DNA from: a virus
DNA length: 64,000 bases
IMG/VR virus record: IMGVR_UViG_3300044624_003021
Coordinates: 17,666 to 81,665 of that record
Direction: 5' to 3' (one strand)
Below, one piece after another: positions 6,497 through 60,005 of the stretch; positions within the stretch are counted from its first letter, which is position 1, and every line of letters starts with the position of its first letter. A program made the translations under genes and the position numbers. The notes beneath the pieces were generated by a model. That model did not search any database and was not told the DNA's origin. It worked only from the letters and a program-made list of their open reading frames with translations.

Positions 6497-6507
6497 TTTA
6501 ATTATTT

Positions 6508-7775: not shown

Positions 7776-7820
7776 TACCGATAGTCAAAAAAAAACTTAT
7801 TTTAAAGATATTTGTAATAT

Positions 7821-8012: not shown

Positions 8013-8731
8013 AGACTTTCGTTCAAGTTCTTTAATCTGAAGTATGACAATTTATTATACGTCTCAGAATCAACTTTTGTTATTGTTTCTTCAACTCTGT
8101 CTAAAGTGTCATTATCTTGTGTGCCTTCCTTCAAAGAAGTTAATTTTGTTTTAACCTCATTTTTAATTGACTCAAACTGAGGTTCCAATTCAGAGTCTTC
8201 GGTCTTTAAAAATTTAATTAAATCTTGTCTGTCAGACTCATTTAAATTTTCAACGTAATTTGAGAAAGTTTTATTTGCAATATTAATCATAGTTGAAATC
8301 GGCAAATTAACTGTTTCTGTTTTTTTGGTTTCAGTAGACTTAATTAAGTTTTCAGAAATAACCTTTTTACTTTTTAAACGAGACTCAATTGTTAAAACGT
8401 CAGTTGAAAACAAATTATCAATGTTCTCGTACTTATTATCACATTTAACATCAGAAACCCATTTCTTTAGATTGTTGATTGTTGATTCATCAATTTTATT
8501 TACGGTGTTCTCATAAATTGTAACACATTCATAGATGTAATCATTAACCAAAGATTCGTTTAAACCTTTATTTGAACTCATTTCATCGTATAGATAAAAC
8601 AACTTACTAATATTCTTATTACCCAAAACTAAAGACTTAAAATTCCTCATTTCAGATTTAAAAGTATTCTTAGAATAAGATTCAAGTAATTTTTCTTCAA
8701 TCTTTGATTTAATATTTCCGAACTTAATCAT
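8009..8731 (-). CDS. Unknown head-cassette protein
   Basis: A 240-aa, largely helical protein with many Lys, Glu and Asn residues, located directly after the portal gene. It ends in LNESL, a motif like the prohead protease sites, so it may be an internal or scaffold component. An ATATTTATA motif lies upstream of the ATG. Confidence 0.78.
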   Translation of the reverse strand: MIKFGNIKSKIEEKLLESYSKNTFKSEMRNFKSLVLGNKNISKLFYLYDEMSSNKGLNESLVNDYIYECVTIYENTVNKIDESTINNLKKWVSDVKCDNKYENIDNLFSTDVLTIESRLKSKKVISENLIKSTETKKTETVNLPISTMINIANKTFSNYVENLNESDRQDLIKFLKTEDSELEPQFESIKNEVKTKLTSLKEGTQDNDTLDRVEETITKVDSETYNKLSYFRLKNLNESL

Positions 8732-8752
8732 TTTCTTTTTTTATTATAAATA

Positions 8753-10594: not shown

Positions 10595-10630
10595 TAAGAT
10601 AATTTAATCACTTTATCAATAATATAAATA

Positions 10631-12391: not shown

Positions 12392-12406
12392 AAGACTATA
12401 TTTGTA

Positions 12407-12416
12407 TATAAATATT
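12407..12416 (-). promoter_or_regulatory. AATATTTATA motif upstream of terminase (putative phage promoter)
   Basis: On the coding strand AATATTTATA lies 15 nt before the ATG. The same sense-oriented motif precedes most virion genes of this window (see findings). Confidence 0.55.
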
Positions 12417-12417
12417 A

Positions 12418-12440
12418 AACCCCCAACTAAGTGGGGGTTT
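12418..12440 (-). terminator. Intrinsic terminator before terminase
   Basis: Runs of five C and five G form a hairpin flanked by A and T runs. It ends the transcript of the upstream gene. Confidence 0.75.
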
Positions 12441-12443
12441 TTA

Positions 12444-13769: not shown

Positions 13770-13770
13770 T

Positions 13771-14781
13771 TTATTTCAAATTAATACCAATGGACCCAAA
13801 TGTTAACCATTGTGGAACATCCTCGGCCTTTGGAGCTGGTTTATGTTTTGGTTGATATGGAGTTTGTGGTTTTGGTCTTTCAGGTTTAACGTCAGGTTTG
13901 ACAGGGGTTTCTACTTCTCTCTCACCGGCCTTTGGAGCTGGTTTATGTTTTGGTTGATATGGGGTTTGAGGCTTTGGTCTTTCAGGTTTAACATCCGGTT
14001 TAACAGGGGTCTCAACTTCTTTTCCGGCCTCATTAATCATATTTACTAAATCTTTTTTGCTCATCTTAGGTGGTAAATGTTTTTCTACTAAATTACTAAT
14101 TTTCTTTTCTAAAACACTTTCGCCAAATTTAACATCAGGTTTCATATTATACGCAGCTTTTTCTAAATTATTTGCTAACACTGATGATAATTTTTTTGTG
14201 TAATCACCCATTCCAAATTCTTCTTTTGTTTCTTTTTTCTTTTTTTCAGGTAATTTACTAAAATTTTTAGTAGAATCAGAAAATTCTTTTGCCATCTTAC
14301 ACCACTTTTTCTGTTCTTTTGTTTTACCATCACCACACTTGTACCAAAAATATTTTTGTTGTTTTTTTGATTCAAATTTTTCTCCTAAATCTTGAGCACC
14401 AAATGTAACCGCAATTTCAGGGTCATTCATTGCTAATAAAATATCACCATCATTAGATTCTTGTTCATTGGTTTCTTTAGATTGTAAAGCCAATGCAATG
14501 TCAGTATCATCATCCTCATTCATTTCGCTCTCAGCTTTAATTGCCATACCTGCGGAAGTTGGAGTCATAGTGACAGGTTTTCCCCCGATTGTAGTTGTTC
14601 CTCCTTTGGGTCCAACAATTTGAACCGTGGTTGCACTTGTTGTTATTTGTTCCTTATTTTCTTTTTTTGACTCTTCAAGTCTCTGATGTAAAGAATCAAT
14701 TTGTCTCTCATTAAGATTAGAAAGCAAAGAATTACTAAACCCGTGATTTAATAACTCCATTATTTTTTTATTGGCTTTCAT
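13771..14781 (-). CDS. Unknown virion-cassette protein with a Pro/Lys tandem repeat
   Basis: About 336 aa from the ATG at 14781. An ATG at 14760 that avoids overlap with the previous gene is also possible; a TTG at 14799 is less likely. The middle carries WYKCGDGKTKEQKKWC, a Cys-containing motif. Near the C-terminus a 34-aa Pro/Lys-rich unit (beginning EVETPVKPDVKPERPKPQ) occurs twice in tandem. The short spacing to both neighbours fits an operon. Confidence 0.75.
   Translation of the reverse strand: MKANKKIMELLNHGFSNSLLSNLNERQIDSLHQRLEESKKENKEQITTSATTVQIVGPKGGTTTIGGKPVTMTPTSAGMAIKAESEMNEDDDTDIALALQSKETNEQESNDGDILLAMNDPEIAVTFGAQDLGEKFESKKQQKYFWYKCGDGKTKEQKKWCKMAKEFSDSTKNFSKLPEKKKKETKEEFGMGDYTKKLSSVLANNLEKAAYNMKPDVKFGESVLEKKISNLVEKHLPPKMSKKDLVNMINEAGKEVETPVKPDVKPERPKPQTPYQPKHKPAPKAGEREVETPVKPDVKPERPKPQTPYQPKHKPAPKAEDVPQWLTFGSIGINLK
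13824..14027 (-). repeat. Tandem repeat, two units of 102 bp
   Basis: Two near-identical copies begin at 13824 and 13926 and differ at a handful of positions, mostly silent. They encode the Pro/Lys repeat of the surrounding gene. Confidence 0.85.
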
Positions 14782-15181
14782 AGAATATTTTTTTTTCAAA
14801 TTCTAATACGATGTCTCTTTCGTATAGTTTATTTTTTACAGTTTCTTCAGGTTCACCGAATCTAAAAACCAAACGCTTGTTTCTGTCAAAATCAATCGTT
14901 TCACTTTCATTTTCCCAACACAAAGCTATCACACCATCAACCGCATCAACCATTGAAAAATAATCAGAGTTTTGAATCACAGACATTGTTATTATGTCGT
15001 TTTTCAAAACTCCAACCTTTTTTATATGTTCTAAGTCAGGTGGGAGGGGGTATCCGTTTGATGGTTTTGATTCCCATGAATCCCCCCACACACCTTCCAA
15101 ATCGTCAGAAAAAATAAACTCGTATATGTTATCTCCCTTATAATTTGGTCCTAATTCATTTACAAATATCAAATAGCTCAT
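14768..15181 (-). CDS. Unknown virion-cassette protein
   Basis: A 137-aa acidic protein with several aromatic residues in its N-terminal half (YEFIFSDDLEGVWGDSWE). It starts inside the stop codon of the upstream gene (ATGA overlap at 15178-15181), so the two are probably translationally coupled. Confidence 0.75.
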   Translation of the reverse strand: MSYLIFVNELGPNYKGDNIYEFIFSDDLEGVWGDSWESKPSNGYPLPPDLEHIKKVGVLKNDIITMSVIQNSDYFSMVDAVDGVIALCWENESETIDFDRNKRLVFRFGEPEETVKNKLYERDIVLEFEKKIFYESQ

Positions 15182-16467
15182 ATAACATCACCCTTTGGAG
15201 TAATCTTAATTTTAGACTCATTTACTTGGAAAACCAAATTTTTGTTCTTTGTTTTTCCTAACAATTTAGCATCAGGGTATTGGCTAATAAGTTTCTTTGA
15301 TTTCAAATACTGAGTTTCACTTTCAGAAACATATTGAACTCTCTTAACTAATTTTTTACGTTCAACTTCTTCTGAAACCACTTTTGGTTTTTTATTTTGT
15401 ATTTCTCTTTTTTCCGCTTCATCAATTTGGAAGTATTTGGTTAAAATTTTGTCAATTTTAGATTCAGAGAAAATACCCTCAATCATTTCTTCCATTTTGT
15501 ATGCACGGTCATCACTGATTCTTCTATCTTTAATTTTCCTATGTCTTGGTTCAGAAGGATAATCAAAATCATCAGACTCTTCATCATCAAACATTGAACT
15601 AATATCATCCATTGACATTCCCATATCTCCCTCAGCCATTTCACCTTCAGGTGCTGGTGGCATAGGTTCTTCCGAAGTGTCAGGTTCCATACCCATGTCT
15701 TCACCACCCATATCAGGTTCCATACCCATATCTTCACCACCTTCAAACTTGGACATAATTTCTTCCTTGTCTTCGGGAGCTAAACCGTTTAAATCTAAAG
15801 CCGAAAGAATCGAATTTATAACATATTTTGTGTCATCAGATGTCATTTTTGTTTCTTCATCAGCATTCAGTGTTCTTAATTTTTGACCTAATTTTCCTGT
15901 CAATTTTTGAATTACTTTAAAAGTAACAACTTCATCATCAGGAGCCTCATCCGCCATGTCATCCATAGGGGGCATTTCCGCTTCAGGCTCAGCTGATGGT
16001 ACAGGAATGTCCGCCTCGGGTGCGGGTGCAGGTGCCGGAGCAGGTGCGGGAGCTGGTGCTGGTGCGGCCTGTTCGTTGGTATTCAATTTCAAATAATATT
16101 TCTTTTCAGATTCTTCACTCTCAGTAAACAAAGAAATATTTTTGTCTTGACCTTCATTGATATTAACTTCTTTAGCAATTAAATTAAGTCTTTTAAAGGC
16201 CGCAGAATATGAAGAATAATATTTTCTATTTTTCATTGGTTCAAGATAATCAATTGACTCATTAAGTCCTTTTTTAATTACATAACCATTCTTTTCTTTA
16301 ACTATTTGGTAATTAATACCATCAGCTAAAGTGATTTTATATTCATTTGATGAATCTTCATTTATTGGTTGTGGGATATGTTCGTTATAACGAGCAATCT
16401 CCATAATACGGTTAATTTTATCCATACCATCTAATTTTTCACTACCAATTGGTCTTAAGTTTCCCAT
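15178..16467 (-). CDS. Unknown virion-cassette protein with (Ala-Pro)n stretch
   Basis: A 429-aa protein. Residues about 134-150 are alternating Ala-Pro, followed by an acidic Met/Asp/Glu region containing a short duplicated block (GGEDMGMEPD twice). The C-terminal 100 residues are basic and helical. Motifs such as PINE, LFTES and VNES look like prohead protease sites. It resembles a scaffold or internal head protein in composition; no family is recognised. Confidence 0.75.
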   Translation of the reverse strand: MGNLRPIGSEKLDGMDKINRIMEIARYNEHIPQPINEDSSNEYKITLADGINYQIVKEKNGYVIKKGLNESIDYLEPMKNRKYYSSYSAAFKRLNLIAKEVNINEGQDKNISLFTESEESEKKYYLKLNTNEQAAPAPAPAPAPAPAPAPEADIPVPSAEPEAEMPPMDDMADEAPDDEVVTFKVIQKLTGKLGQKLRTLNADEETKMTSDDTKYVINSILSALDLNGLAPEDKEEIMSKFEGGEDMGMEPDMGGEDMGMEPDTSEEPMPPAPEGEMAEGDMGMSMDDISSMFDDEESDDFDYPSEPRHRKIKDRRISDDRAYKMEEMIEGIFSESKIDKILTKYFQIDEAEKREIQNKKPKVVSEEVERKKLVKRVQYVSESETQYLKSKKLISQYPDAKLLGKTKNKNLVFQVNESKIKITPKGDVI

Positions 16468-16537
16468 TTTTTTTTCTTTTTAAAAAATTAATTTTTTTAT
16501 ATAAATATACGGCGAAATATAAATATTTCATTTTAAA

Positions 16538-18214
16538 TTACGCAGCATTAATTCCAAGAACGTCATCTATCTTTCTTCCGCTCTTAGCAATCAAACTATT
16601 ACCACTATCAACTCTACTTCTTATTGCCTTTTTGGACAATACATCAGTATTAAGTTCCCCATTTTCAACCGCTTTATTAATAACTTTAGCAAATTTTCTA
16701 AACCATCCTGGTCCGTTCCAAACCGCATAAGCAAAATGGAAGGTCAATCTTGAATCACTATCAACTAATTTCTTTGCCGTTGGAGACAAGTATCTATTTT
16801 TAAATTCGTTATAAAAAGGTTGAATAATATCAACAACTAAATCTGTGAGTTCTCCTTCAAGTTGTCCTCCTCTGTAGTTATATTTCCAAACCTGTTGACT
16901 TTTATTTTTGTCTATAATACCCCAAAACTTAATACCTGCAGGACTTGTATTATAGTTACCTCCATGTCTTCTATCAATTCCAAACATAGTCTCACCTGAC
17001 CTACCCATTCCTTTTGTATTGTGCCATTTTGGATTGTAATAACCTCCTTCCAAATTATTAATGACACTTCTTGTGATTTGTCTAAAATCAACTGAACCTG
17101 ATGGTGATATAATTTTCGGTTCTTTTTTAACGATTAATTCAGTTTCTTTTGATTTTATTGGTTCTAAAGTTTTAACAGGTCTTCTTTTAAAAATAACTTC
17201 TGACATTTTTTTGAAGTCTTTAGAATCAACTTTACCATCGACAGTTAACCCATTTTCAGATTCGAAGGACTCAACTGCGGTTTGTGTTTCTTTTCCAAAT
17301 TTACCATCAACACCAAATTTAGGTAAAGGATAACCCATAAGTGTCAAAGCTGTTTGTAAAATTTCAGTATTTGGATTAAAGATTTTTTGACCTTTAGGTT
17401 TTGGTTCATTGATTAATGTCAGATTTTTATTTGATAATTCGGTTAAACTATCGACAATATTTGAGTATTCATCACTTTCAGCCTGCTCCTTGAGTGATAA
17501 TTGTTTATCAATGTGCTTGTCTTCAAAATTAAAAAGTTTTTCAATATACCCGTTTCTTCTAAGAACTTTAAATACCAAATTTTCATCTGAATATTCTCCA
17601 TCTTTTTCAAGACCACAAGTACGATATTTTTTTAACTTATCTTTGTATTTTTTAATTATTTTCTTAGCACTTTCAATTGGTTCATCTGAAGCATTTTCTA
17701 TAACACTATCAATAATGTCCATCCATTGTTGAGACTTGGTTTTGATTAATTCCTTATCAATTTTGACAGTTTCTTTTTCAGGTTTGTTACTCCATTCATC
17801 AAATAACACAGAATAAACACCACTACTAAAATGAATTTCGGTTTCGTTTTGGACGTATAATTCAACGTCATAACCAAAAATCTTTATATTGTGTTTGTCG
17901 TTATATAAAGTTTTTTTGAGTTTGAATAACTCTTCGTATAGTGGTAATTGTTCTTCTGAAAACTGAGAAAAATTCGCAACAATATGTAAATCAATGTCTG
18001 AAAATTTTGACCAATTGTAGTTGGCAAGTGAACCTGTCATTATTACATCAGTAACAATAACGTCAACACCCAAAAATTCTATAAAATCATTGGTTATCTC
18101 CAATAGTCTCTCACGGACCTTTGGATTCATTTTTTGTCCGTCTTTGGACCAAATTTTTGGGTTCAGTTCATCTTGTAGATGAAAACTCGAAAGAATATCT
18201 TTTAAACTACTCAT
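16538..18214 (-). CDS. Three-domain protein: nucleotidyltransferase, peptidoglycan-binding, muralytic domain
   Basis: A 558-aa protein with an unusual architecture. Residues 1-125 resemble a minimal nucleotidyltransferase: Gly61-Ser62, then Asp73-x-Asp75 (SDIDLHIV) and a possible third acid Glu118. Residues about 282-340 match the PG_binding_1 pattern (LQTALTLMGYPL, GVDGKFGKETQTAVESFE). Residues about 376-540 look like a lysozyme/transglycosylase-type domain, with Glu389 in NNLEGGYYNP and a GETMFGID block as in GH108-like enzymes. It lies at the upstream end of the head cassette and is probably a virion protein acting on the cell wall at entry. The substrate of the transferase is unknown. Confidence 0.78.
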   Translation of the reverse strand: MSSLKDILSSFHLQDELNPKIWSKDGQKMNPKVRERLLEITNDFIEFLGVDVIVTDVIMTGSLANYNWSKFSDIDLHIVANFSQFSEEQLPLYEELFKLKKTLYNDKHNIKIFGYDVELYVQNETEIHFSSGVYSVLFDEWSNKPEKETVKIDKELIKTKSQQWMDIIDSVIENASDEPIESAKKIIKKYKDKLKKYRTCGLEKDGEYSDENLVFKVLRRNGYIEKLFNFEDKHIDKQLSLKEQAESDEYSNIVDSLTELSNKNLTLINEPKPKGQKIFNPNTEILQTALTLMGYPLPKFGVDGKFGKETQTAVESFESENGLTVDGKVDSKDFKKMSEVIFKRRPVKTLEPIKSKETELIVKKEPKIISPSGSVDFRQITRSVINNLEGGYYNPKWHNTKGMGRSGETMFGIDRRHGGNYNTSPAGIKFWGIIDKNKSQQVWKYNYRGGQLEGELTDLVVDIIQPFYNEFKNRYLSPTAKKLVDSDSRLTFHFAYAVWNGPGWFRKFAKVINKAVENGELNTDVLSKKAIRSRVDSGNSLIAKSGRKIDDVLGINAA

Positions 18215-18534: not shown

Positions 18535-20583
18535 ATGACTGAACCAATGGATAATGACGGAAAAAGCAAAAGCAAACCAAAAGGAGATTCGTCAACTCCA
18601 GTCCTTGATAATTTTAGTAGAGATTTGATAAAGTTGGCTGAAGAAGGTAAACTTGACCCTGTTATAGGTAGAGAAAGAGAAATAACAAGAATTGCCCAAA
18701 TTTTATCTAGAAGAAAGAAAAATAACCCAATTATTATTGGCGAACCTGGTTGTGGTAAAACCGCAATTGTTGAGGGTCTTGCCATTAAAATTTTTGAGGG
18801 AGATTGTCCAAGAAATTTGATGGACAAAAGAATTGTGTCTTTAGACATGACATCAATTGTTGCCGGTACAAAATACCGTGGTCAATTTGAAGAGAGAATG
18901 AAAGTTATTATTGAAGAACTACAATCCTCTCCAAACATTATTGTCTTTATCGATGAGATTCATACAATAGTTGGGGCCGGAAATTCATCGGGTTCTTTGG
19001 ATGCGTCCAATATCTTTAAGCCAGCACTTGCTAGAGGAGAAATTCAATGTGTTGGAGCAACAACATTGGATGAATATAGAAAGAATTTTGAAAAGGATGG
19101 TGCCCTCGAACGAAGATTCCAAAAAGTTGTTGTTGATTCGGCAACAAAAAAAGAAACATTTTTGATTCTTAAGAATGCTAAGGATAAGTATGAAACTTAC
19201 CATAAAGTGAAATACTCTGATGAAATTCTTAATCTTTGTGTTGATTTGGCAGAACGATATATAACCGACCGTGAGTTTCCTGATAAAGCTTTCGACATTA
19301 TTGATGAAGTAGGAGCTCGTAGTCAAGTTGAGATTAAGGTTCCTGAAATTATCGACCAATTGAAACAACAAGCAACCGATATTAAACAACAAAAAATTGA
19401 GGTTGTTAAAAAACAGAACTATGAAGAGGCTGCAAACTTACGAGATAAGGAAAAGAAAATTATTAGTAAGTTGGAAGATGAGAAAAAGAAATTCGAGGAA
19501 GAATTAATCTCACAGAAAAGAGAAATCACAACAGAATTGGTTTATGAAACCGTTTCTAACATGACCAAAATTCCAATTTCTAAATTAGATTCTGACGAAA
19601 CTAAGTTGTTAACTAAACTTGAGGAAAATTTATCCGGTAGGGTTATCGGTCAGGCACCGGCTGTTGCAAAAATTGCAAAATCTATCAGAAGAAATAGATT
19701 GGGTATCAAGGACCCAAACAAACCAATTGGTTCATTTATATTCTTAGGTTCAACAGGCATCGGAAAAACATTACTAGCCAAAGAACTTGCAAAACAAATT
19801 TTTGGTAGTGAGGATAACCTTATCAGAATTGATATGTCAGAGTTTCAAGAAAAACATACAATATCTCGTTTGATTGGAGCTCCTCCAGGATATGTTGGGT
19901 ATGATGAAGGTGGTCAGTTGACAGAACAAGTTAAAAACAAACCATATTCTGTGATTCTATTTGATGAAATTGAAAAGGCAAACAAAGACATTTTCTCAAC
20001 TCTATTACAGGTATTGGATGACGGTCACGTTACAGATGGTTTGGGTCGTAAAATTAATTTCAAAAATTGTGTGATTATTATGACATCGAATATTGGGGCG
20101 AAAAAATTACAAGATTTTGGCGCTGGTATCGGATTTAAGAGTGTTAACACTTACGTTGAGGAGGAGTATAAAAGAGACGTTTTGAAAAAAGAACTTCAGA
20201 AGTTTTTTGCTCCAGAATTCTTAAACCGTATTGATGAAGTTATTGTCTTCAATAGTTTGAAAAAAGAAGATATTCAACAAATTGTTAAACTTGAGCTTGA
20301 TAAACTTTGTAATAGATTAGTTGGTCTGAAATACAACATCACATATGAACAGAGTGTAACCGATTTAATTTCTGAGGTTGGTTTCGATGAACAATTCGGG
20401 GCTCGTCCTTTAAAGAGAGCAATCCAAGACAAGATTGAGGACTATATTTCTGAAGAAGTATTAAAAGGTAACATTGTAGAAAATGGTGATTACCAATTGT
20501 ATGTAGAAACCAAAGAAATTAAAATTAAACAGGTTACCACAATAAGTCCTGTGAAAAAGACAAGAAAGAAAAAAGGGGAGTAA
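18535..20583 (+). CDS. ClpC/ClpA-type AAA+ unfoldase without N-domain
   Basis: A 682-aa ATPase with two AAA+ modules: Walker A GEPGCGKT (69-76) with Walker B VFIDE, and Walker A GSTGIGKT (405-412) with Walker B LFDEIE. A short UVR-like middle segment (NYEEAANLRDKEKKI) places it with ClpC. The protein starts directly at module D1; the substrate/adaptor N-domain of about 140 residues is absent. An IGF tripeptide (532-534) lies where ClpA/ClpC carry the ClpP-docking loop, so pairing with host ClpP is likely. No ClpP gene is in the window. Confidence 0.92.
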   Translation: MTEPMDNDGKSKSKPKGDSSTPVLDNFSRDLIKLAEEGKLDPVIGREREITRIAQILSRRKKNNPIIIGEPGCGKTAIVEGLAIKIFEGDCPRNLMDKRIVSLDMTSIVAGTKYRGQFEERMKVIIEELQSSPNIIVFIDEIHTIVGAGNSSGSLDASNIFKPALARGEIQCVGATTLDEYRKNFEKDGALERRFQKVVVDSATKKETFLILKNAKDKYETYHKVKYSDEILNLCVDLAERYITDREFPDKAFDIIDEVGARSQVEIKVPEIIDQLKQQATDIKQQKIEVVKKQNYEEAANLRDKEKKIISKLEDEKKKFEEELISQKREITTELVYETVSNMTKIPISKLDSDETKLLTKLEENLSGRVIGQAPAVAKIAKSIRRNRLGIKDPNKPIGSFIFLGSTGIGKTLLAKELAKQIFGSEDNLIRIDMSEFQEKHTISRLIGAPPGYVGYDEGGQLTEQVKNKPYSVILFDEIEKANKDIFSTLLQVLDDGHVTDGLGRKINFKNCVIIMTSNIGAKKLQDFGAGIGFKSVNTYVEEEYKRDVLKKELQKFFAPEFLNRIDEVIVFNSLKKEDIQQIVKLELDKLCNRLVGLKYNITYEQSVTDLISEVGFDEQFGARPLKRAIQDKIEDYISEEVLKGNIVENGDYQLYVETKEIKIKQVTTISPVKKTRKKKGE

Positions 20584-20598
20584 AATCCCCTTTTTTTT
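20572..20598. terminator. Bidirectional terminator between Clp ATPase and a convergent gene
   Basis: GGGGA/TCCCC with loop GTAAAA, A-rich on one side and eight T on the other; it overlaps the Clp stop codon. Confidence 0.85.
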
Positions 20599-20974
20599 AT
20601 TTTAGTGTTTGTGAAGTTAATTTTTCGATTTTGTCAATCGCATTTGCATATGACGTAAAATAATTTACCGCATCGTCTATTTCATTTTCTAAGTCGAACT
20701 TACTTTGTGCGGGCATTTTCGAGGCCTGAACCTTACCTTTTAAATCGGAAAGTTGGGTCATTATTCTTGTATTCGGCTCGTCTAATTTTTTTAGTTTACG
20801 AGTAAGATTTCTTAAATTACTTGTGTATTTGTAGTAATCATAACCATATCCTCTCCATACACCTTTCAATCCTTGATACACGTCACTTATACCTTCTTGA
20901 GTTTCTTGTTCTTCAATAACTCTCTTAACTATTTTTTCTAAATCGGATTCTGTTAATCTTATAACTTTTCCCAT
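20597..20974 (-). CDS. Small protein with IRLTESDL N-terminus (possible capsid-targeted protein)
   Basis: A 125-aa, mostly helical protein. The first 20 residues (MGKVIRLTESDLEKIVKRVI) closely match those of the gene at 46653-47057 and contain L-T-E-S, a prohead protease-type site. The rest has no known domain. An ATATTTATA motif precedes the ATG. Confidence 0.78.
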   Translation of the reverse strand: MGKVIRLTESDLEKIVKRVIEEQETQEGISDVYQGLKGVWRGYGYDYYKYTSNLRNLTRKLKKLDEPNTRIMTQLSDLKGKVQASKMPAQSKFDLENEIDDAVNYFTSYANAIDKIEKLTSQTLK

Positions 20975-26262: not shown

Positions 26263-26715
26263 TTAAACCGTATGGTCAATATTAACCCTAATACAAGTTT
26301 GAGGTTTATTTTCATTCATCAAAAAATTATTAATATACCCCATAATATTTGCCGAGCCGATAGGATTGGCCGAGTGTACGACTACCAAAGGAAATTTAAT
26401 ACTACTAGCACCCTTTTTGGAACGGCTCATCTCAATCCTATCAGGATTCATTTCATAAAAATAATCTACAATCCATTTTGTACAATCATATCCGGTTTTT
26501 TCCTTAATATTATCGTAATCCAATTTGTAGTTTGGGGATACATTTGCAAAATACTCATTCACTGCGGTATCACCCAAATCATGGTCCAATGAGATTGTTT
26601 CAATTTCACCGAGACCAATCTCAGTTACTTTATTAACAAAATCGTCGTAATTTCTAACAACAATCCAATCGTTAGATAGAGGTGTACGAATGTCATCCAA
26701 ATAAATTCTTTTCAT
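26263..26715 (-). CDS. Cyclic-phosphate-processing receiver-domain (cREC) protein
   Basis: A 150-aa protein with MKRIYLDDIRTP at the N-terminus, ISLDHDLGD in the middle and VHSANPIGSANIMGYINNF near the C-terminus, the three marks of the stand-alone cREC receiver family linked to RNA-end repair systems. Known family members are predicted to process cyclic phosphates; a role in repairing cleaved tRNA is inference. TATCTTTG lies 4 nt upstream of the ATG, which implies a leaderless mRNA. Confidence 0.8.
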   Translation of the reverse strand: MKRIYLDDIRTPLSNDWIVVRNYDDFVNKVTEIGLGEIETISLDHDLGDTAVNEYFANVSPNYKLDYDNIKEKTGYDCTKWIVDYFYEMNPDRIEMSRSKKGASSIKFPLVVVHSANPIGSANIMGYINNFLMNENKPQTCIRVNIDHTV

Positions 26716-46652: not shown

Positions 46653-47057
46653 TTACCAAGTACGACACGCCCAATATCTTGGTTTCCATCTTGGTCCAGG
46701 ATTGTCACAATTGTGTCTCGCTCTAAAAGATTTTCTTCTTTCAGGATTATTTTTCTTGATTGTCATTCTTTTTCCTTTTGCGGACTTACCACCAAAACCA
46801 AAGTTTACCTTAACAACTTTACCATTTTCATTCTTAACATAAACTTTAAACTTTTTAATATCACCTTGCATGATTTTACCAAGCTGTACTTTTCTACCCT
46901 TATACTCCGCTTCATTTAAAACGTCAGTTGATTCGAAATCAGTTTCAACAACACTTCCATATTCATCTTCATATATGATACCTTCATTCATCTGAGCGGT
47001 AACCATCTCAATAATTCTTTTCAAATCTGATTCTGTCAATCTTATAATTTTACTCAT
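46653..47057 (-). CDS. Small protein with IRLTESDL N-terminus and basic C-terminus
   Basis: A 134-aa protein starting MSKIIRLTESDLKRIIEMV, almost the same as the gene at 20597-20974. DVLNEAE is a second protease-type site. The C-terminal half is strongly basic (KRMTIKKNNPERRKSFRARH) and ends with CDNPGPRWKPRYWACRTW, a pattern known from phage proteins of unknown role. A DNA-binding internal head protein is plausible. Confidence 0.75.
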   Translation of the reverse strand: MSKIIRLTESDLKRIIEMVTAQMNEGIIYEDEYGSVVETDFESTDVLNEAEYKGRKVQLGKIMQGDIKKFKVYVKNENGKVVKVNFGFGGKSAKGKRMTIKKNNPERRKSFRARHNCDNPGPRWKPRYWACRTW

Positions 47058-47657: not shown

Positions 47658-48188
47658 ATGAAAAGAATTACGATAAACGAGGGTGAACTTAGAAAAATAA
47701 TTAGACAACACCTGAAAGAGGAAATGGGAATGGATTCTAAAGAAACTCAAGAATCTAAACCAAAATGTATGACCACCAATTCTATCCCATTGACTGAACT
47801 TGTTGGTGAGGCCGGTGATTATGATTTATATTCTCCAGGTGTGACAAAAAGAAAAAGAGGAGTAAACTCAATGGTGGACACTTTAGGTATTTTAAATAAC
47901 CTAAGATTATTTAAAGACGTTAATGACGGTGGTGCCCATCTTTCTTATGAAATGATGAATCATTTGAATAAATTTAAAAACAAAAACTACTACGATGAAA
48001 CATCAGGAGAATGTCATAAAGCCATGGATAAAGTAATCGAACTATATAAAGAAAATGAACACGGGACAGAACTAGTTAAAGACATTGAAAGGGTACTCGC
48101 TCTTCAAACTAAAGATGACGAGTATACCCCATCTCCAAGAGCGAAAGAATATTTAAAAAGATGTTTAATGTTAGTTAAAGAAAAATAA
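47658..48188 (+). CDS. Unknown protein with INEGEL N-terminus
   Basis: A 176-aa helical protein starting MKRITINEGELRKIIRQHL, the same kind of N-terminal module as the other (L/I)-x-E proteins of the window. No other motif. A structured segment and terminator follow. Confidence 0.75.
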   Translation: MKRITINEGELRKIIRQHLKEEMGMDSKETQESKPKCMTTNSIPLTELVGEAGDYDLYSPGVTKRKRGVNSMVDTLGILNNLRLFKDVNDGGAHLSYEMMNHLNKFKNKNYYDETSGECHKAMDKVIELYKENEHGTELVKDIERVLALQTKDDEYTPSPRAKEYLKRCLMLVKEK

Positions 48189-48462: not shown

Positions 48463-48750
48463 ATGAAAAAAATTGTTGCTCTTTTTGGAGAAGCCCTTCT
48501 TTGGTTAAAAGGTATTTTTAACGACGAGAAAGGTAATCCCTCATCAAAAAGAATTGTGGGTATGGGTTGTGCCATAGCACTATGTTTAACCATGTATCAC
48601 AATAGCTTTTCCAATGTTGATGTTGCACCTGCAGAATACTTAGTTGACGCGGTTGCATTATTGGCGTTTGGTTGTCTAGGTCTTGCAAGTTTTGACAAGT
48701 TCACAGACAGAAGAGGTAGAAAGAAAAAGGATGAAGAAGAACCTAATTAA
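48463..48750 (+). CDS. Holin-like protein
   Basis: 95 aa with two membrane segments (IVGMGCAIALCLTMY, LVDAVALLAFGCLGLAS) and a charged C-terminus (KFTDRRGRKKKDEEE), the topology of small phage holins. It is the second holin candidate in the window. A terminator follows. Confidence 0.65.
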   Translation: MKKIVALFGEALLWLKGIFNDEKGNPSSKRIVGMGCAIALCLTMYHNSFSNVDVAPAEYLVDAVALLAFGCLGLASFDKFTDRRGRKKKDEEEPN

Positions 48751-49156: not shown

Positions 49157-51034
49157 TTACTTAGGTTGTACTTCTTCAAAATCTACGTCTGAAACTTCTT
49201 CATCCATAGTTTGACCGCCTTCACCTTCAGAACCAGACTGACTATAAATTCCTTGGGTAATTGTTTGAGATGTGATTGCAACTTTTGCAGTTGCGTCTCT
49301 AACCTTTTCAACTTCCTTCTCTTGTAGGGCTGTTTTTAATTCAGCCAAAGCATCGGTTAATTGAGTTTTTTGTTCATCGGTCATTTTTTCTTCTAAATCC
49401 TTTAGAGTTTTTTCAGCTTGGAACGCCATAGAATCTCCTTGATTTATTATGTCAGCATTTTCACGAGCTTTAGCGTCCGCTTCGGCATTTAACTCAGCAT
49501 CACGTTTCATTTGTTCAATTTCCTCTTTAGAAAGTCCTGTCGAACTTTCAATACGGATTGATTGCTCTTTGTCAGTGGCTTTGTCTTTTGCTGAAACATT
49601 GATAATACCGTTAGCATCGATGTCAAAAGTTACTTCGATTTGTGGAACTCCTCTCATTGCCGTTGGAAGACCATCAAGGAAGAAACGACCAATTGTTCTA
49701 TTGTCTTGAGCCATTGCTCTTTCTCCCTGTAGAACGTGAATTTCTACTGATGGTTGATTGTCAACTGCGGTTGAGAAAACTTGTGACTTTTTTGTCGGAA
49801 TTGTTGTGTTTGACTCAATAAGTTTTGTGAATACTCCACCCATCGTTTCAATACCGAGTGAAAGTGGTGTTACATCCAACAACAATACGTCTTTAACGTC
49901 ACCTGCGAGTACTCCTCCTTGAATTGCAGCACCAAGTGCTACAACTTCATCAGGGTTAACTCCTTTTGATGGTTCTTTACCGAAGAACTTTTTAACTGCC
50001 TCTTGGATTGCAGGAATTCTAGTTGAACCTCCAACCAAGATAACTTCATCGATGTCTTTTGGTTTCAAACCTGCGTTTTTCAAGGCCGATTTACATGGTG
50101 CAATTGTACGTTGTACCAAACTGTCAACCAACTGCTCGAACTTTGCCTTTGTCATTGTACGAACCAAGTGTTTTGGCATACCATCTACCGGCATAATGTA
50201 AGGAAGATTGATTTCCGTTGATGGTGAAGATGAAAGTTCAATCTTTGCTTTTTCAGCTCCTTCACGAAGACGCTGAAGTGCCATTGGGTCTTGATTCAAA
50301 TCCAAACCATTTTCATCTTTGAACTCTTGAACGAGCCAGTCGATAATTGCTTGGTCAAAGTCATCACCACCTAGGTGTGTATCACCGTCAGTTGACAAAA
50401 CTTCAAATACCCCATCACCAAGTTCAAGAACCGATACGTCGTGAGTACCACCACCACAGTCAAACACAACAACTTTCATATCCTGACCTTTTTTGTCAAG
50501 ACCATAGGCAAGTGCCGCCGCGGTTGGTTCGTTAATAATACGTTTAACAGTTAGACCTGCAATTTCACCGGCTTCTTTTGTTGCCTGACGTTGAGCATCA
50601 TTGAAATATGCTGGTACTGTAATAACCGCATCAGTTACTGTTTCACCCAAATAGTCTTCGGCAGTTTGCTTCATTTTCTGAAGAACCATCGCCGAAATTT
50701 CCTGAGCTGAAAACTTCTTGTCCTCAATTTGAACACGAGGAGTGTTACCCTCACCTTTAACCACTTTATAAGGAACACGCTTGATTTCTTTTTTACTTTC
50801 ATCGAAACTTGCTCCCATAAAACGCTTAATGGAGTAAACTGTTTTATCAGGATTTGTAACCGCTTGACGTTTTGCCGGGTCACCAATCTTTCTATCACCA
50901 CCATTTGCAAAACCAACAATCGAAGGGGTGGTTCTTTTTCCTTCACTGTTTGTAATCACAACAGGTTCGCCATTTTCCATAACGGCAACACATGAATTTG
51001 TTGTTCCTAAATCAATACCTATAATTTTACCCAT
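49157..51034 (-). CDS. dnaK: Chaperone DnaK (Hsp70)
   Basis: A 625-aa full-length Hsp70: [17 protein letters not shown] at the N-terminus, [18 protein letters not shown], phosphate and adenosine motifs ([12 protein letters not shown]), substrate domain ([16 protein letters not shown]) and a lid ending in an acidic tail ([14 protein letters not shown]). No DnaJ or GrpE gene lies in the window, so it would use host co-chaperones. Phages with a complete dnaK are uncommon. Confidence 0.96.
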
Positions 51035-51177: not shown

Positions 51178-52218
51178 TTATTTTTCGAGTTCTAAAGTAT
51201 ATAATCTCATGAAATTTCTTTGCAGTTTGTCACCGGCCTTATTGATTCTTGGTTGGAAATTATTAATCAAATCTAACAAACCTTCAGTTTTTTCTATATA
51301 CCGTGCCGGTTTTTCACCGTAAACTCTCATCCATTTGTAATAATCGGTCATAAACCATTTATATAAATTGTTCAAAATAGACAGTAGTTTATCGGGGTTC
51401 ACTTCTTGAATTTTATTTGTCAACTTATCAAAAAACGTATCGGCATCAAAGTTTTTCATGACTGATGCGTTGGACCAAAGTTTAGTTTTTTTGAATTCTT
51501 CAAAGGGTAATATTGATGTTTGGCTAACCGCCTCTTGTGATTTTGCATTTACTTCATATGGTTCTGAATAGTATATCATATCCAAAAATTCTTGCCAAAC
51601 TTTGTAAATTTCTTTGTTTACGTTATAGTTTTTACCTCCAACCCAACTCAAGGTGGTATTAAATTGTTTTGCTCCTGATTCAGCCCTTCGATAACTCTCT
51701 AACATGTGATTACATTCGTGAATTATCGTATCTCTAAGGTCATATAGTGCTTTGTCTTTCAATTCTTCATTGAACTCAATCCCTATTTTAAAACTTATAA
51801 ATAATTTTACATACAAAGTTTGAGTAATCTCCTCCAAAATATACTTAGGTAACTCAAGTGTGGGTGATTTTAAATATGACCCACCAAATGATTTTTTGTC
51901 TATTGATTGAAATCCTCCTCCTGACGTGAATCTGTTTTCTTTTGTATTTTTTGGAATTTTCAAACAAGAAAAATCAATTTCAATTTTTTCCACGGGTAAC
52001 TCAATATAATCATCCATACTTGATTGAAAAATTTGTGAAATATCTTTCAAGTCTATAATGATTTTTTGTTTGGATGGAATTCTTGATTCCATAAATTCAA
52101 GGACCTTAGGTTCGAGTTTTTGGTATATCAAATTACTGTAGGACAAGGAAACCCGGGAGACTCCCAAATCTTCTTTAATAAGTGTTTTCAATTGGTTCTC
52201 AGATAACAAAACTTTCAT
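51178..52218 (-). CDS. Putative zinc metalloprotease (HExxH) with LSE N-terminus
   Basis: A 346-aa protein with DTIIHECNHMLESYRR (His167, Glu168, His171); a third ligand may be Glu180 or the later NAKSQEAVSQ Glu. The N-terminus MKVLLSENQLKTLIKEDLG belongs to the (L/I)-x-E group. AATATTTATA lies a few nt before the ATG. Probably packaged in the head; substrate unknown. Confidence 0.72.
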   Translation of the reverse strand: MKVLLSENQLKTLIKEDLGVSRVSLSYSNLIYQKLEPKVLEFMESRIPSKQKIIIDLKDISQIFQSSMDDYIELPVEKIEIDFSCLKIPKNTKENRFTSGGGFQSIDKKSFGGSYLKSPTLELPKYILEEITQTLYVKLFISFKIGIEFNEELKDKALYDLRDTIIHECNHMLESYRRAESGAKQFNTTLSWVGGKNYNVNKEIYKVWQEFLDMIYYSEPYEVNAKSQEAVSQTSILPFEEFKKTKLWSNASVMKNFDADTFFDKLTNKIQEVNPDKLLSILNNLYKWFMTDYYKWMRVYGEKPARYIEKTEGLLDLINNFQPRINKAGDKLQRNFMRLYTLELEK

Positions 52219-52362: not shown

Positions 52363-53220
52363 ATGAAAAACACAAAAATTTATCACGAGTTGGTCCAAAA
52401 GATGAGGACCTTTTTCCTAAACAAAGGTTTTCTTGAGGTTCCGACCCAATCAAGATTATCAATTCTCGCAGCATGTGAGAATCCACACTCAATCACAACG
52501 TTTGAGTATCAAGGTCAAATTTGGCCATTACCACAAACAGGTCAAATGTGGTTAGAGTATGAATTGTTACAAAATTCCGAATGGCCAGGTGTGTTCTGTA
52601 TCTCAACATCATACAGACAAGAAAAAGACCCAATCCCAGGTCGTCACGAATTAATCTTCCCAATGTTTGAATTCGAGTCAAAGGGTGGTATGAAAGAATT
52701 ACTTAAATTAGAATCTGAATTACTTGCGTTTTTAGGTTTTGATTCTCCTGTTGAAGTGAATTATGACGATGTTTGTGAAGAATATGGCGGAGTTCCGATT
52801 TTGGAAAACGAACACGAAACTAAAATGTGGAAAGAAAAAGGTGATGTGGTGTCATTACAAAATTTCCCTGTTAGAACTAACCCATTTTGGAACATGAAGT
52901 CAGGTGAAGGTGACAAATTCAATAAAGTAGACGTTATTCTTTACGGTCAAGAAACAATTGGTTCTGCTGAAAGAAGTTGTGATGTTGATGAAATGAGACA
53001 AATGTTCTATACTATAGAAAACGGTGGTTATTCTGCCAAATTGTTTGAATTGTTTGGTAAAGAAAGAGTTGAAAAAGAACTTGAAGAGTTTTTATCTCAC
53101 AAATTCTTTAAAAGATTTGGTGGAGGTATTGGTTTAACTCGTCTTGCCAGAGCATATCAAATGATGAAAGACTCTCACGATGAATTACACATGAATTATG
53201 GTGATGTAAACAAATTTTGA
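52363..53220 (+). CDS. Class II aminoacyl-tRNA synthetase catalytic core (Asn/Asp type)
   Basis: A 285-aa protein with class II motifs: GFLEVPTQSRL near residue 22, motif 2 as STSYRQEKDPIPGRHELIFPM (81-101) and motif 3 as GGGIGLTRLARA (253-264). GQETIGSAERS matches the AsnRS/AspRS active-site strand. The N-terminal anticodon-binding domain of AsnRS/AspRS is absent. Such cores include asparagine synthetase-like and tRNA- or protein-modifying paralogues, so true tRNA charging is uncertain. The terminator upstream suggests attenuation. Confidence 0.82.
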   Translation: MKNTKIYHELVQKMRTFFLNKGFLEVPTQSRLSILAACENPHSITTFEYQGQIWPLPQTGQMWLEYELLQNSEWPGVFCISTSYRQEKDPIPGRHELIFPMFEFESKGGMKELLKLESELLAFLGFDSPVEVNYDDVCEEYGGVPILENEHETKMWKEKGDVVSLQNFPVRTNPFWNMKSGEGDKFNKVDVILYGQETIGSAERSCDVDEMRQMFYTIENGGYSAKLFELFGKERVEKELEEFLSHKFFKRFGGGIGLTRLARAYQMMKDSHDELHMNYGDVNKF

Positions 53221-53722: not shown

Positions 53723-54073
53723 ATGAAGCAGATTATATTTTTGGTGTTTATGTTCTTACAGGTTGTAGGACATTCACAAGTAGAAGAAGTTGTGTTTAAA
53801 AATGACAAAGGTCAAATCGAACAACGTGGTCATTTATCAAATAATCTAAAAACTGGTGAGTGGATTGCTTATTATGAAAATGGAAGCATATTTTCTGTAG
53901 GTTATTATGATAAAGGTAGAAAAGATGGAATCTGGACTACATATTCACCAGTTGGAATTAGAGTATCTCAAGTCAAATATTTTAAGGGTAAAAAATATGA
54001 AGGTTGGATGTATGATATGGAAGGAAATTTAGTTGAGAAAAGAATTTTTAAGGATTATATCACAAATGATTAA
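53723..54073 (+). CDS. Secreted MORN-repeat protein (YwqK-like)
   Basis: 116 aa: signal peptide ending GHSQ, then at least three MORN-type repeats (GHLSNNLKTGEWIAYYENG, GYYDKGRKDGIWTTYSP, KGKKYEGWMYD). Such proteins occur in the Bacteroidota envelope. TATTTATAAT lies upstream. Confidence 0.75.
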   Translation: MKQIIFLVFMFLQVVGHSQVEEVVFKNDKGQIEQRGHLSNNLKTGEWIAYYENGSIFSVGYYDKGRKDGIWTTYSPVGIRVSQVKYFKGKKYEGWMYDMEGNLVEKRIFKDYITND

Positions 54074-54753
54074 TTCTTCTTTGGTTTTTCTGACGCATAC
54101 TTAACACCCATTATAGTTCCGACAATACTGAATGCATTTGTTAATAATATACCAAACATATTACTCCAAGTTGAGCCAATTATTTGGGTATCTTGACCTG
54201 TGAACAATGCCACAGAATATAATGCCGTAGTAACTATTCCAACTCCAATAATTACAATTAAAGCAACTCTTACAATTGTATTTATTAACTCAAATTGAGT
54301 TTTCTTTTGTAACACATCCAAATCATTTTCGGCATGTTGTTTTGCCTTTTCAGCATCAACCCTTGCTTGTTCGGATTTAACCATCTCCACCGTTAATTCT
54401 TCCGTCAACCTCAAATTATCCAATTTCCACTCGTTTAATTCTCTGTTTTGGACTTCAAATGTTAATTTAGATTCTTCAACTTCATTTAATGTTGTTTGAA
54501 GTTCGTCTAATATCTTTTGATTTTGGGCGTTTAAGTCGGATAGTTCTTTGTTTTGGGTTTGAATTTGTTTGGTAATGTCAAGTCTCTTCTTTCTATTTGC
54601 AACATCTCTTTCACCACACTTTTTAAGGTATTCTTTAAAATATTCATCCCCATCAGAATTAATTACCTTAACTATATTTCCTTCCAAAAATAAGTTTTTG
54701 GTTTCTGATAAGATAATTAATTCTTGTTTTATTTCAGGGGTGAATTTTATCAT
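54070..54753 (-). CDS. Coiled-coil membrane protein of the two-component operon
   Basis: 227 aa: a long Gln/Asn/Glu coiled coil (about 60-150) followed by two membrane helices (NTIVRVALIVIIGVGIVTTA, MFGILLTNAFSIVGTI). It overlaps the response-regulator gene by 4 nt and may be the output or a partner of the signalling pair. Confidence 0.7.
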   Translation of the reverse strand: MIKFTPEIKQELIILSETKNLFLEGNIVKVINSDGDEYFKEYLKKCGERDVANRKKRLDITKQIQTQNKELSDLNAQNQKILDELQTTLNEVEESKLTFEVQNRELNEWKLDNLRLTEELTVEMVKSEQARVDAEKAKQHAENDLDVLQKKTQFELINTIVRVALIVIIGVGIVTTALYSVALFTGQDTQIIGSTWSNMFGILLTNAFSIVGTIMGVKYASEKPKKN

Positions 54754-55181
54754 TTGTAAATTTTAAACGGAGCGGTTCTGTTTTTGTAACCTTCATAATC
54801 TTTCTTAAACTCCTCCAATCTTGGTTCAATCTCATCTGATTTTATAATCCAAAATTGAGCACCTGACTGAATTGCCTTTGCCTGTTCTTCGGGTTCGTTT
54901 GAAGATGAAATAATTCCGATTACAACATTATTACCGTATTCAAAGTTAATCTTTCTAATTAACTCAATACCATCAAAGGAAGACCCAATGATATTCAAAT
55001 CAACAAACACACATTCAGGCTTATCAGAGCTATTTGATTGCCATTTTTCAAATAATTTGGCGGCCTCATCTGAACTATTCAAACTTTTTAAAGATAATGT
55101 TATATCAAGAAGCGAACAGCTATCTTCAAATACTAAATGGAATAAATCCTCGTCATCTACAAGTAAAATTGAATCAATCAT
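54750..55181 (-). CDS. Stand-alone response regulator receiver protein
   Basis: 143 aa with a complete receiver site: Asp9-Asp10, phospho-acceptor Asp61 (VDLNI), Ser92/Ser93 and Lys114 (WIIKSD). No output domain follows, so it acts by protein contact, as CheY does. It lies between the kinase gene (8 bp) and the membrane coiled-coil gene (overlap 4 nt). Confidence 0.88.
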   Translation of the reverse strand: MIDSILLVDDEDLFHLVFEDSCSLLDITLSLKSLNSSDEAAKLFEKWQSNSSDKPECVFVDLNIIGSSFDGIELIRKINFEYGNNVVIGIISSSNEPEEQAKAIQSGAQFWIIKSDEIEPRLEEFKKDYEGYKNRTAPFKIYK

Positions 55182-55189
55182 AGTTTTTT

Positions 55190-56443
55190 TTATTTTATTT
55201 TTATTTTCAGTTTAGTTCCTATCTCATTTTTCTCACATCTTACCAAAAACTTGTGTTCTTGTAATATCGCAACACATATGTTTAATCCGAGTCCAGTTCC
55301 TGACTCTTTTTGCCCTTCTTTTCTTGTGTATGGTTTTGATAAATGGTCAAAATCTTTTTGGTCAATACCTCGTCCATTATCCTGAACCATTAACTCATCA
55401 CCTTCCATATATATTTTTACAAATTTTGTTTCAGAATCATTATACTTCAATCCATTCCTAATTAAGTTGTCTATTGCCGTACAGAATAGAGCTTCATTAA
55501 CTTCTATGGTTGGTAGTTCCTCAATAATTACCTGACTATGATAAGCAGTTGATGATAAATAATCATTTAGTATCGCTCTTAAATCACATTCAGCTTTATT
55601 TAATACCACATCTTTTTTAACCAAATTGGTAAATTCATAAACACCTTTATAAACTTTTTGTGAGTGTCTTAATCCCTCCTTAATCATTTTAAGGGGAGCC
55701 TCAATCTTTAAAGTTTCTATGTCCTCAGGTTTTAATCTTCTTTCCAAAGAACTTATACCTCTCGGGATATAAGTATTAATTCCAGAGTGCATGTCGTGTC
55801 TCAATATTTTAGCCGCGTGCTCGAGATAAGTGTTTTGTTTTTCAATTTCTTTTGACTTTTCAACAATTTCAGATATGTCTCTTGCAATTTTTAATACTCG
55901 ATAGGTTTCTCCTGTTTCATTTATAATTGGATTGTAGGTGGCACTTAAATAAATCTTGTTACCGTCCTTTTTCTTTCTGATAATGTCCCCACTAAAATAA
56001 ACACCTGATTTAAGTTTGTTCCAAAAATTAATATACCCATTTGAATTTTTTTCATCATCAAAAACAAAAATACTATGATGTTTTCCTATAACCTCTTCTG
56101 ATTTATACCCCATTGCATCCAAAAATGAATCATTGGCAAAACAAACTATACCATTAGTATCAAATTCAATCACAGGACTTGAACGATTAATCGCATCCAT
56201 TCTATTTGCTAACGCTCTTTCTTTTTGTGTGATTTTTTCAGTAAGTTTTTTATTTTCCCTTTCATTCTTAATATATTGTCTGATAAAGGAATATAAAAAA
56301 TATGTTATTGTCAAAAATAGAATATATTCCGACCCCCTCGTAACTGGTGATGAAGGAGTGATATCAAGTAATACTGTAGTTTTCAGGATTAAGAAAACAA
56401 CTACTATTAATGAAATTAAGTTTAATTTTAATTTTAACGACAT
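55190..56443 (-). CDS. Membrane PAS-sensor histidine kinase
   Basis: 417 aa: two membrane helices (about 8-27 and 40-56), a PAS domain (about 82-195, GIVCFANDSFLDAMGYKSEEVIG), an H-box with His216 (ILRHDMHSGIN), and an ATPase domain with Asn326/Asn330, DNGRG (355-359) and GTGLGL (382-387). All catalytic boxes are intact. With the next gene it forms a full two-component pair. A GATATTTATTG motif precedes it. Confidence 0.92.
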   Translation of the reverse strand: MSLKLKLNLISLIVVVFLILKTTVLLDITPSSPVTRGSEYILFLTITYFLYSFIRQYIKNERENKKLTEKITQKERALANRMDAINRSSPVIEFDTNGIVCFANDSFLDAMGYKSEEVIGKHHSIFVFDDEKNSNGYINFWNKLKSGVYFSGDIIRKKKDGNKIYLSATYNPIINETGETYRVLKIARDISEIVEKSKEIEKQNTYLEHAAKILRHDMHSGINTYIPRGISSLERRLKPEDIETLKIEAPLKMIKEGLRHSQKVYKGVYEFTNLVKKDVVLNKAECDLRAILNDYLSSTAYHSQVIIEELPTIEVNEALFCTAIDNLIRNGLKYNDSETKFVKIYMEGDELMVQDNGRGIDQKDFDHLSKPYTRKEGQKESGTGLGLNICVAILQEHKFLVRCEKNEIGTKLKIKIK

Positions 56444-56511
56444 TCATCAATAAATATCAATATACTCTTTAAGTTAAAAAAAATATTACTATAATTAAGG
56501 TTTTTTTAAAA

Positions 56512-56542: not shown

Positions 56543-57232
56543 TTAAATAAACTCCAATTTATTCGTTACAGGGTCCCATTCTACCGTTAGTGGTTTTTGG
56601 GTGTATTGATACTGTTCGTCTAATACCGAGGCATTGATGAAGTGAGTATCTCCGTCAAAAACATAACCATACCCTGAATGTATGTGCCCGCAGACATGAA
56701 TTTTAGGTTTAATTGTTTTAATTCTTTTTGTCAGTAATTCACATCCAAGATTATCATACTGACCCATAATTGTATCCAAATAACCAAATGCCGGTCCGTG
56801 AGTAATTAATATGTCAGTATCATCAGGAATGTCATTCCACTTCTGTGTAAGTTTATGACCATTCTTTGGTAGATTAAACGCCCAATTATAGAACTCGGGC
56901 TGCCATGGACTACCATAAATCTTTACATAATTTTCCGTATCAACTCCGTAACCAAGAAAACTATCTTGAAGATAAACAATGTCATTATAAAAACCGACAA
57001 CCTCTTTGGCCATTTCGGGTTCCTTTTCAAACCCAAAGTCGTGATTACCGGCAATGAATGTCTTTACAGTATAATTTTCCAAACTGTCAAACCACTTGCA
57101 GAATTTTTGGATTTCATACTTATAACCCATTGATGAGATATCACCAGCGTGAATCAGTAAGTCACCTCCTGGCAAATCTTCAGTAATTTGCTTGTGTTTG
57201 TTGTGAGTATCTGATATAAAAGTTATTTTCAT
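56543..57232 (-). CDS. Calcineurin-like metallophosphoesterase
   Basis: 229 aa with the metal sites ISDTHNK (Asp8, His10), HAGDISSMG, AGNHDFGF, ITHGP and CGHIHSGYG. It would hydrolyse a phosphodiester or phosphomonoester; substrate unknown. Its start overlaps the end of the NusG-like gene by 4 nt. Confidence 0.9.
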   Translation of the reverse strand: MKITFISDTHNKHKQITEDLPGGDLLIHAGDISSMGYKYEIQKFCKWFDSLENYTVKTFIAGNHDFGFEKEPEMAKEVVGFYNDIVYLQDSFLGYGVDTENYVKIYGSPWQPEFYNWAFNLPKNGHKLTQKWNDIPDDTDILITHGPAFGYLDTIMGQYDNLGCELLTKRIKTIKPKIHVCGHIHSGYGYVFDGDTHFINASVLDEQYQYTQKPLTVEWDPVTNKLEFI

Positions 57233-57750
57233 TTTTTTACTTGGGTTTCCTCCAATTCAACAGATGTTGGTCTGCCAAAGATAAGAACATTTACTTTAAG
57301 TTTACCTTTCTCTTTATCAATAAATTCAATGTTTCCCTTAAAGGATGTAAATGGACCTTCAGTTACAGTAACTTCATCTCCAACACTGAATATGTCTGAA
57401 AAACTTTTTGTTTTGTTTTCTTCGTGAATTCCAATCATTCGGTTTACTTCTTGGTCTGATACAATTTGGATATTTCCAGCTCTGTCAGACAACAATCCCG
57501 TTGCTCCATCAATTTTTTTAACAACTTGTTTTAATTCCCCAATTGCGGATGTTTCAACAAAAACATAACCAGGAAACAAAACTTTTTCACGTTGTGTTTT
57601 TTTACCATCTTTCGTGGCAAATACTTTTTCCATTGGAACTACAACTCTTCCGATTACCCCATTGAGTTCCCCTTTGTCGGCTTCTTTTAAAATTCTTTCT
57701 GAGACTTTTCTCTCACGATTTGCTTGTGCTCTTACAATGTACCATTCCAT
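57229..57750 (-). CDS. NusG-family transcription elongation factor
   Basis: 173 aa: NGN domain with WYIVRAQANRERKVSERI and KVLFPGYVFVE, then a C-terminal KOW domain (FSVGDEVTVTEGPFTSFKGNIEFI). Length is that of NusG. It could change host RNA polymerase to favour phage transcripts and act with boxA-like leaders found before three RNA operons here. Confidence 0.92.
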   Translation of the reverse strand: MEWYIVRAQANRERKVSERILKEADKGELNGVIGRVVVPMEKVFATKDGKKTQREKVLFPGYVFVETSAIGELKQVVKKIDGATGLLSDRAGNIQIVSDQEVNRMIGIHEENKTKSFSDIFSVGDEVTVTEGPFTSFKGNIEFIDKEKGKLKVNVLIFGRPTSVELEETQVKK

Positions 57751-59579: not shown

Positions 59580-60005
59580 ATGAAAATAGTACAAAACGGT
59601 GACTCCGTAAAAGTTAACTACACAGGACGTTTAGAGGACGGTTCTGTATTCGATTCTTCACTAACTGAAGGTCGTGAACCATTGGCTGCGGTATTAGGAC
59701 AAGGTCAATTGATTAAAGGTTTTGAATCAGGATTGATGGGAATGTCAGTCGGAGATAAAAAGACAGTGGAAATTGACCCATCAGAAGCTTATGGTGATGT
59801 TGTTGAGGGTATGGTAAGTGAAGTACCTCTCGGGAATCTTCCTGAAAATGTTAAAGTTGGTGACCAACTACAGGGTATGACCGAACGTGGTCCAGTAATG
59901 GTAGTTGTTAAAGAAGTGAATGAAACCTCAGCTATGGTTGATGCAAATCATCCTTTGGCAGGTAAAAAACTTATCTTTGATTTGGAGTTGGTTAGTATCG
60001 ACTAA
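59580..60005 (+). CDS. FKBP-type peptidyl-prolyl isomerase (SlyD-like)
   Basis: 141 aa: FKBP core NYTGRLEDGSVFDSS, LGQGQLIKGFESGLMGM and GDKKTVEIDPSEAYG, with an inserted-flap segment and the C-terminal strand ANHPLAGKKLIFDLELV, as in SlyD. It lacks the His-rich metal tail of SlyD. It would assist folding of phage proteins in the cytoplasm. Phage FKBPs are rare. Confidence 0.92.
   Translation: MKIVQNGDSVKVNYTGRLEDGSVFDSSLTEGREPLAAVLGQGQLIKGFESGLMGMSVGDKKTVEIDPSEAYGDVVEGMVSEVPLGNLPENVKVGDQLQGMTERGPVMVVVKEVNETSAMVDANHPLAGKKLIFDLELVSID

Follow-up and report, generated by a model that had tools for sequence, protein, structure and literature searches.

A phage-borne operon of a sensor kinase, a lone receiver and a coiled-coil membrane protein, with a possible role in the control of host lysis

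Three adjacent genes on the minus strand, at positions 54070-56443 of the DNA analysed, encode a membrane histidine kinase (HK; 55190..56443, 417 aa), a stand-alone receiver (RR; 54750..55181, 143 aa), and a coiled-coil membrane protein (CC; 54070..54753, 227 aa). The DNA, here called the window, is a stretch of 64,000 nucleotides (positions 17,666 to 81,665) of the 81,665-base IMG/VR record IMGVR_UViG_3300044624_003021. HK and RR are 8 nt apart, and the start of CC overlaps the end of RR by 4 nt (ATGA). An earlier note on this DNA had described one operon with overlaps; the operon and the RR/CC overlap stand, but HK and RR do not overlap. In its structural block the window has a major capsid protein of T4 type (phrog_138, 2e-66) and a portal (phrog_213, 4e-64), together with matches to the terminase large subunit; the record is therefore from a tailed phage. 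The host is probably one of the Bacteroidota, to judge from signal peptides of the '..FSQ' type.

HK is predicted to have two transmembrane (TM) segments, followed by a PAS domain (residues 95-192, 55868..56161, minus strand; PAS_9, 9e-14), a DHp domain, and a HATPase_c domain (residues 320-416, 55196..55486, minus strand; 5.7e-13, above cut-off) with its N, G1, F, and G2 boxes. The predicted phosphorylation site is H216 (codon 55796..55798, minus strand), within the H-box RHDMHSGIN, and the remaining boxes are N326/N330, D355-x-G357-x-G359, and G382-T-G384-L-G386. When 40 relatives were aligned, H216, N326, N330, D355, G357, G359, G384, and G386 were invariant. The Pfam HisKA model did not match the H-box region in the window HK or in any of the 40 members. 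In the AF2 model (pLDDT 89) there is a TM hairpin, a PAS domain, a DHp helical hairpin around H216, and an ATPase domain. The closest PDB matches to this model are LOV/PAS histidine kinases, HK853-RR468 complexes among them, and the sequence profile of HK also matches HK853.

RR matches Response_reg (1.5e-8, above cut-off). Its D9, D10, D61, S92/S93, and K114 are likewise invariant in the alignment of 40 sequences, D61 (codon 54999..55001, minus strand) being the predicted phospho-acceptor. No DNA-binding output domain was found by family search and the receiver alone fills the 143 aa, as the earlier note had said; across relatives the length is 143-150 aa. Its description of a complete two-component system on a phage also holds, the kinase boxes and receiver residues being intact and invariant in 40 sequences and the contig being that of a tailed phage. 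The H, N, G1, F, and G2 boxes, the PAS sensor, and the DD/D/S/K receiver are shared with bacterial systems of the HK853-RR468 type. The operon differs from these in being phage-encoded, in a kinase with no HisKA match, in a receiver with no DNA-binding domain, in the constant presence of a third gene, for a coiled-coil membrane protein, and in that several kinases would feed one receiver.

The window also encodes a receiver-like cREC_REC protein (PF20274, 1.7e-19; 26263-26715, minus strand) that is unrelated to RR, and proteins resembling it (cluster c33) are found close to the operon in 11 loci. The cREC receivers of jumbo phages are not paired with histidine kinases and are part of NAD/cyclic-nucleotide systems (PMC7824862). 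They share with the present phages the occurrence of receiver-fold proteins in large genomes, although in the window the cREC gene is separate from, and additional to, RR.

CC, the presumed receiver-controlled effector, is predicted by AF2 to have a small N-terminal segment, a single long helix (37-185), and a TM hairpin. Residues 37-157 of the helix (54283..54645, minus strand) would form a long cytoplasmic coiled coil, and residues 158-221 (54091..54282, minus strand) the two-TM hairpin. TM2 has the highest conservation in the protein (mean entropy 0.29 bits). A polar stripe on TM2, by hydropathy or conservation moment, was not significant (p ~0.17); the conservation moment of TM1 was. Family searches gave no Pfam match and no PHROG holin match, and CC has no detectable similarity to a known holin or antiholin and no match to a PDB fold. 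Profile comparison with the small membrane-protein clusters c6, c9, and c27 found nothing. There is a single match in BFVD, to an uncharacterised protein of an uncultured phage (57 % identical).

The earlier note had proposed looking for the operon in related phages, and the order HK-(HK2)-RR-CC, HK2 being a second kinase, was found in hundreds of IMG/VR contigs, many of them of 100-320 kb. Scans of IMG/VR, confirmed by tblastn, gave at least 575 stretches with HK, at least 556 with RR, and at least 312 with CC. In all 92 non-redundant pairs measured CC comes directly after RR: 86 pairs have a spacing of -4 or -1 nt, five of 5 nt or less, and the last a 68-nt overlap of the ORF start. All three proteins are under purifying selection, with dN/dS of 0.07-0.26 for HK in like-for-like pairs, mostly 0-0.13 for RR, and mostly 0.03-0.2 for CC, one near-identical, uninformative pair being the exception. 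Because it is kept in hundreds of phage contigs and under purifying selection, the operon is not a chance arrangement. A CC homologue with no adjoining kinase or receiver was seen in one case only (L161:3150-3806), in a 74.5-kb record with no Response_reg match.

Among 84,980 bacterial and archaeal species genomes CC was found in one, on a 16.8-kb MAG contig, and RR was absent at E 1e-10 from 244 other genomes of the phylum of this MAG. With one of some 85,000 cellular species genomes set against hundreds of virus contigs, CC is therefore phage-specific, and the operon is not one confined to bacteria beside non-phage genes, the case that had been named against it. Bacterial origin or contamination was ruled out by these results and by the phage structural genes. 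In cultured phages (INPHARED) neither CC nor RR had a match, and HK gave only generic PAS or ATPase matches. Just three of the 17 large contigs in which a related capsid gene was found also have RR; the operon is therefore accessory, with the caveat that these contigs are fragments. No description of such an operon, or of lysis control by phage two-component systems, was found in the open literature, subscription papers and preprints lying mostly outside the search; a phage-borne operon of a kinase, a lone receiver, and a coiled-coil membrane protein is apparently undescribed.

The column identity of RR is about 89 % on average, whereas the sensor parts of the kinases differ (PAS, GAF, or a periplasmic second kinase). 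Kinases of relatives are between 359 and 712 aa long; they have a single PAS domain or two, and GAF is often present as well. In relative L007, RR is identical to that of the window, yet the kinase sensor is different and longer. HK2, present in many loci, begins with what resembles a signal peptide and has about 160 residues in the periplasm and a single TM segment; its usual neighbour is a secreted protein (c4). In all 16 large phage records with a Response_reg match there is exactly one such match, the operon RR, and RR is therefore seen as the hub of the system. In a few phages (L011/L012, L085, L112), a GIY-YIG-like endonuclease ORF (cluster c62; L130:3518-4240) so assigned by eye, lies between the last kinase and RR; it looks like a mobile element.

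A late-promoter-like element (56450..56457, minus strand; ATATTTAT) is present upstream of HK, with GATATTTATT just before the HK ATG. The motif ATATTTATA occurs 18 times in the window, where 3.6 occurrences are expected, and 14 of the 18 are 12-60 nt upstream of a same-strand gene, including those for the portal and terminase. Across the relatives, 47 of 75 loci have TATTTAT in the 100 nt that precede the first kinase, compared with 8.5 in shuffles. These placements suggest that the operon is expressed late. The form AATATTTATA, found 12-60 nt upstream of structural genes at 4689-18214 and elsewhere in the window, includes the T4 late promoter TATAAATA in reverse complement and is likely to be the late promoter of the phage.

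Clustering of neighbouring ORFs identified a PG_binding_1 and GH19 endolysin family (Pfam 1e-13, 3e-9; phrog_181, 1e-67) in 86 of about 157 loci. In 20 of the 27 records with both, the GH19 endolysin is within 2.5 kb of the operon, where 2.6 would be expected if genes were placed uniformly and relatedness and near-duplicate records are ignored; due to such near-duplicates and the non-random placement of lysis genes, the nominal tail of 3e-16 should not be taken as a real probability. The 20 endolysin genes are downstream on the same strand (12), upstream on the same strand (three), upstream and divergent (three), or downstream and convergent (two). CC directly precedes the GH19 endolysin gene in many phages, though not in the window, and in several records the endolysin starts 11-13 nt past CC. 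On the RR+CC tree the downstream arrangement requires at least nine changes on well-supported branches; the linkage is therefore not one inherited synteny and has been gained or lost repeatedly.

More broadly, an endolysin-type gene (GH19, phrog_3000-like, or M15-like, the last judged by eye from sequence) is within about 6 kb in 60 of 94 non-redundant loci. GH19 is missing within 2.5 kb in about 46 % of non-redundant loci, some of which are cut by contig ends. There is none by the operon in the 81.7-kb fragment that contains the window or in its nearest relatives (L007, L009, L010, and L085), and a search of the whole window record for a GH19 or M15 endolysin gave nothing beyond a weak peptidoglycan-binding match. 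Genes for small membrane proteins and spanin-like genes are recurrent near the operon, and one small neighbour protein has a weak holin match. A small putative holin-like two-TM protein (c9; 48463..48750, plus strand), the family of which has members close to the operon in 14 of the 94 non-redundant loci, has no database support as a holin and in the window may be unrelated to the operon.

The usual picture of lysis timing in lytic phages is a holin clock, to which T4 adds a superinfection brake. For the present operon, signalling by the HK and RR proteins is very likely. Coupling of RR to CC is likely, if with less assurance; the earlier note had suggested CC as the receiver's partner, and this gains from CC being always the next gene in phages with no other canonical receiver. 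That lysis is the output we would put at about an even chance, and the same balanced confidence applies to the reading favoured here as a whole, a phage two-component system with its own membrane effector that most probably controls host lysis, by timing or inhibition. The earlier suggestion of lysis timing is thus strengthened by the recurrent endolysin linkage and the late-promoter-like motif, but not by the window record, which has no endolysin near the operon.

In the scheme that we infer for phosphotransfer, RR-CC binding, the signal, and the direction of the lysis effect, the first kinase, with cytoplasmic GAF/PAS sensors on a TM hairpin, and HK2 where present, would phosphorylate the single RR on D61. 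HK2 would be a periplasmic sensor, encoded beside the secreted c4. RR, having no output domain, would act by binding the product of the next gene, CC, a coiled-coil protein presumably anchored in the membrane by its conserved two-TM hairpin. Binding of phosphorylated RR might alter CC assembly in the inner membrane, and this could either favour or restrain the formation of holin-type lesions and the release of endolysin, such that lysis would track the energy, redox, or envelope state of the host. The recurrent adjacency to lysis genes suggests that these phages sense cell conditions to time lysis. More tentatively, the operons may represent a widespread phage-specific class in which interchangeable kinases act through a near-invariant receiver on a dedicated holin-like effector, making lysis a signal-controlled post-translational decision.

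The alternative that survives best, although we think it unlikely, is that CC changes the host envelope, through superinfection exclusion or membrane stabilisation, and that the linkage to lysis genes reflects only a common late region. CC is a membrane protein with no similarity to holins, endolysin neighbours are missing in many loci, including the clade of the window, and any late function could use a late promoter. The linkage, however, is found in four gene arrangements, with the short CC-endolysin gap in several records, and the neighbourhood repeatedly includes genes for small membrane proteins and spanin-like genes. It is less probable still that the operon taps host signalling, RR being a phosphate sink, or binding a host target as CheY does, and CC being a mere membrane scaffold. 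A stand-alone RR conserved over its full length, as if it had several partners, and a DHp conserved in every kinase would fit this, but CC goes with RR in every pair measured and has a nearly invariant TM2, features that a passive scaffold could do without. A host-derived cargo operon with no phage-specific role, compatible with the patchy occurrence of RR among capsid relatives, was already disfavoured and is highly improbable given the near-absence of CC from bacterial genomes, the lack of RR in the 244 other genomes from the phylum of the one MAG, and the strong purifying selection over very many phages.

If control of lysis is the correct reading, lytic phages read host physiology by phospho-signalling and choose when to kill, a membrane coiled-coil protein is a new type of response-regulator output, and there is a defined set of genes with which to study how the environment controls lysis. 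A functional likeness may be drawn to T4 lysis inhibition, in which the antiholins RI and RIII bind the holin T directly (PMC11413866, PMC8385771); in both, a large lytic phage would tune lysis by envelope-side information through membrane and periplasmic proteins. The T4 system, unlike the operon, has no kinase or receiver, and the two are likened by function alone. In the CtrA-dependent 'lytic deferment' of alphaproteobacterial phages, a host DNA-binding regulator acts on phage promoters (PMC9437464). Phage output is there also tied to a response-regulator pathway, as a functional analogue and not a relative, whereas the operon supplies the phage's own kinase and a receiver with no DNA-binding domain. 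Histidine kinase genes are also present in phage genomes in the curli (T8SS) clusters of Pelagiphages, beside curli and FecR genes, the accessible part of that account reporting no operon of receiver and membrane effector (PMC9599517).

The window also has phage-encoded genes for a Clp-type ATPase, DnaK (625 aa), NusG, a class II aminoacyl-tRNA-synthetase-like protein, and FKBP (regions, given together, 18535-20583, 49157-51034, 57229-57750, 52363-53220, and 59580-60005), of which those for DnaK, the synthetase-like protein, and FKBP are recurrent neighbours of the operon in related phages. A 558-aa protein (16538-18214, minus strand) combines a nucleotidyltransferase domain with a peptidoglycan-binding domain, and a look-alike (c64) is near the operon in a few loci. 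Otherwise different proteins of the window (20597-20974, 46653-47057, and 51178-52218, minus strand; 47658-48188, plus strand) share an N-terminal motif like (R)LTESDLxxII or INEGELRKII, which may be a tag for packaging or targeting, for instance a capsid targeting sequence.
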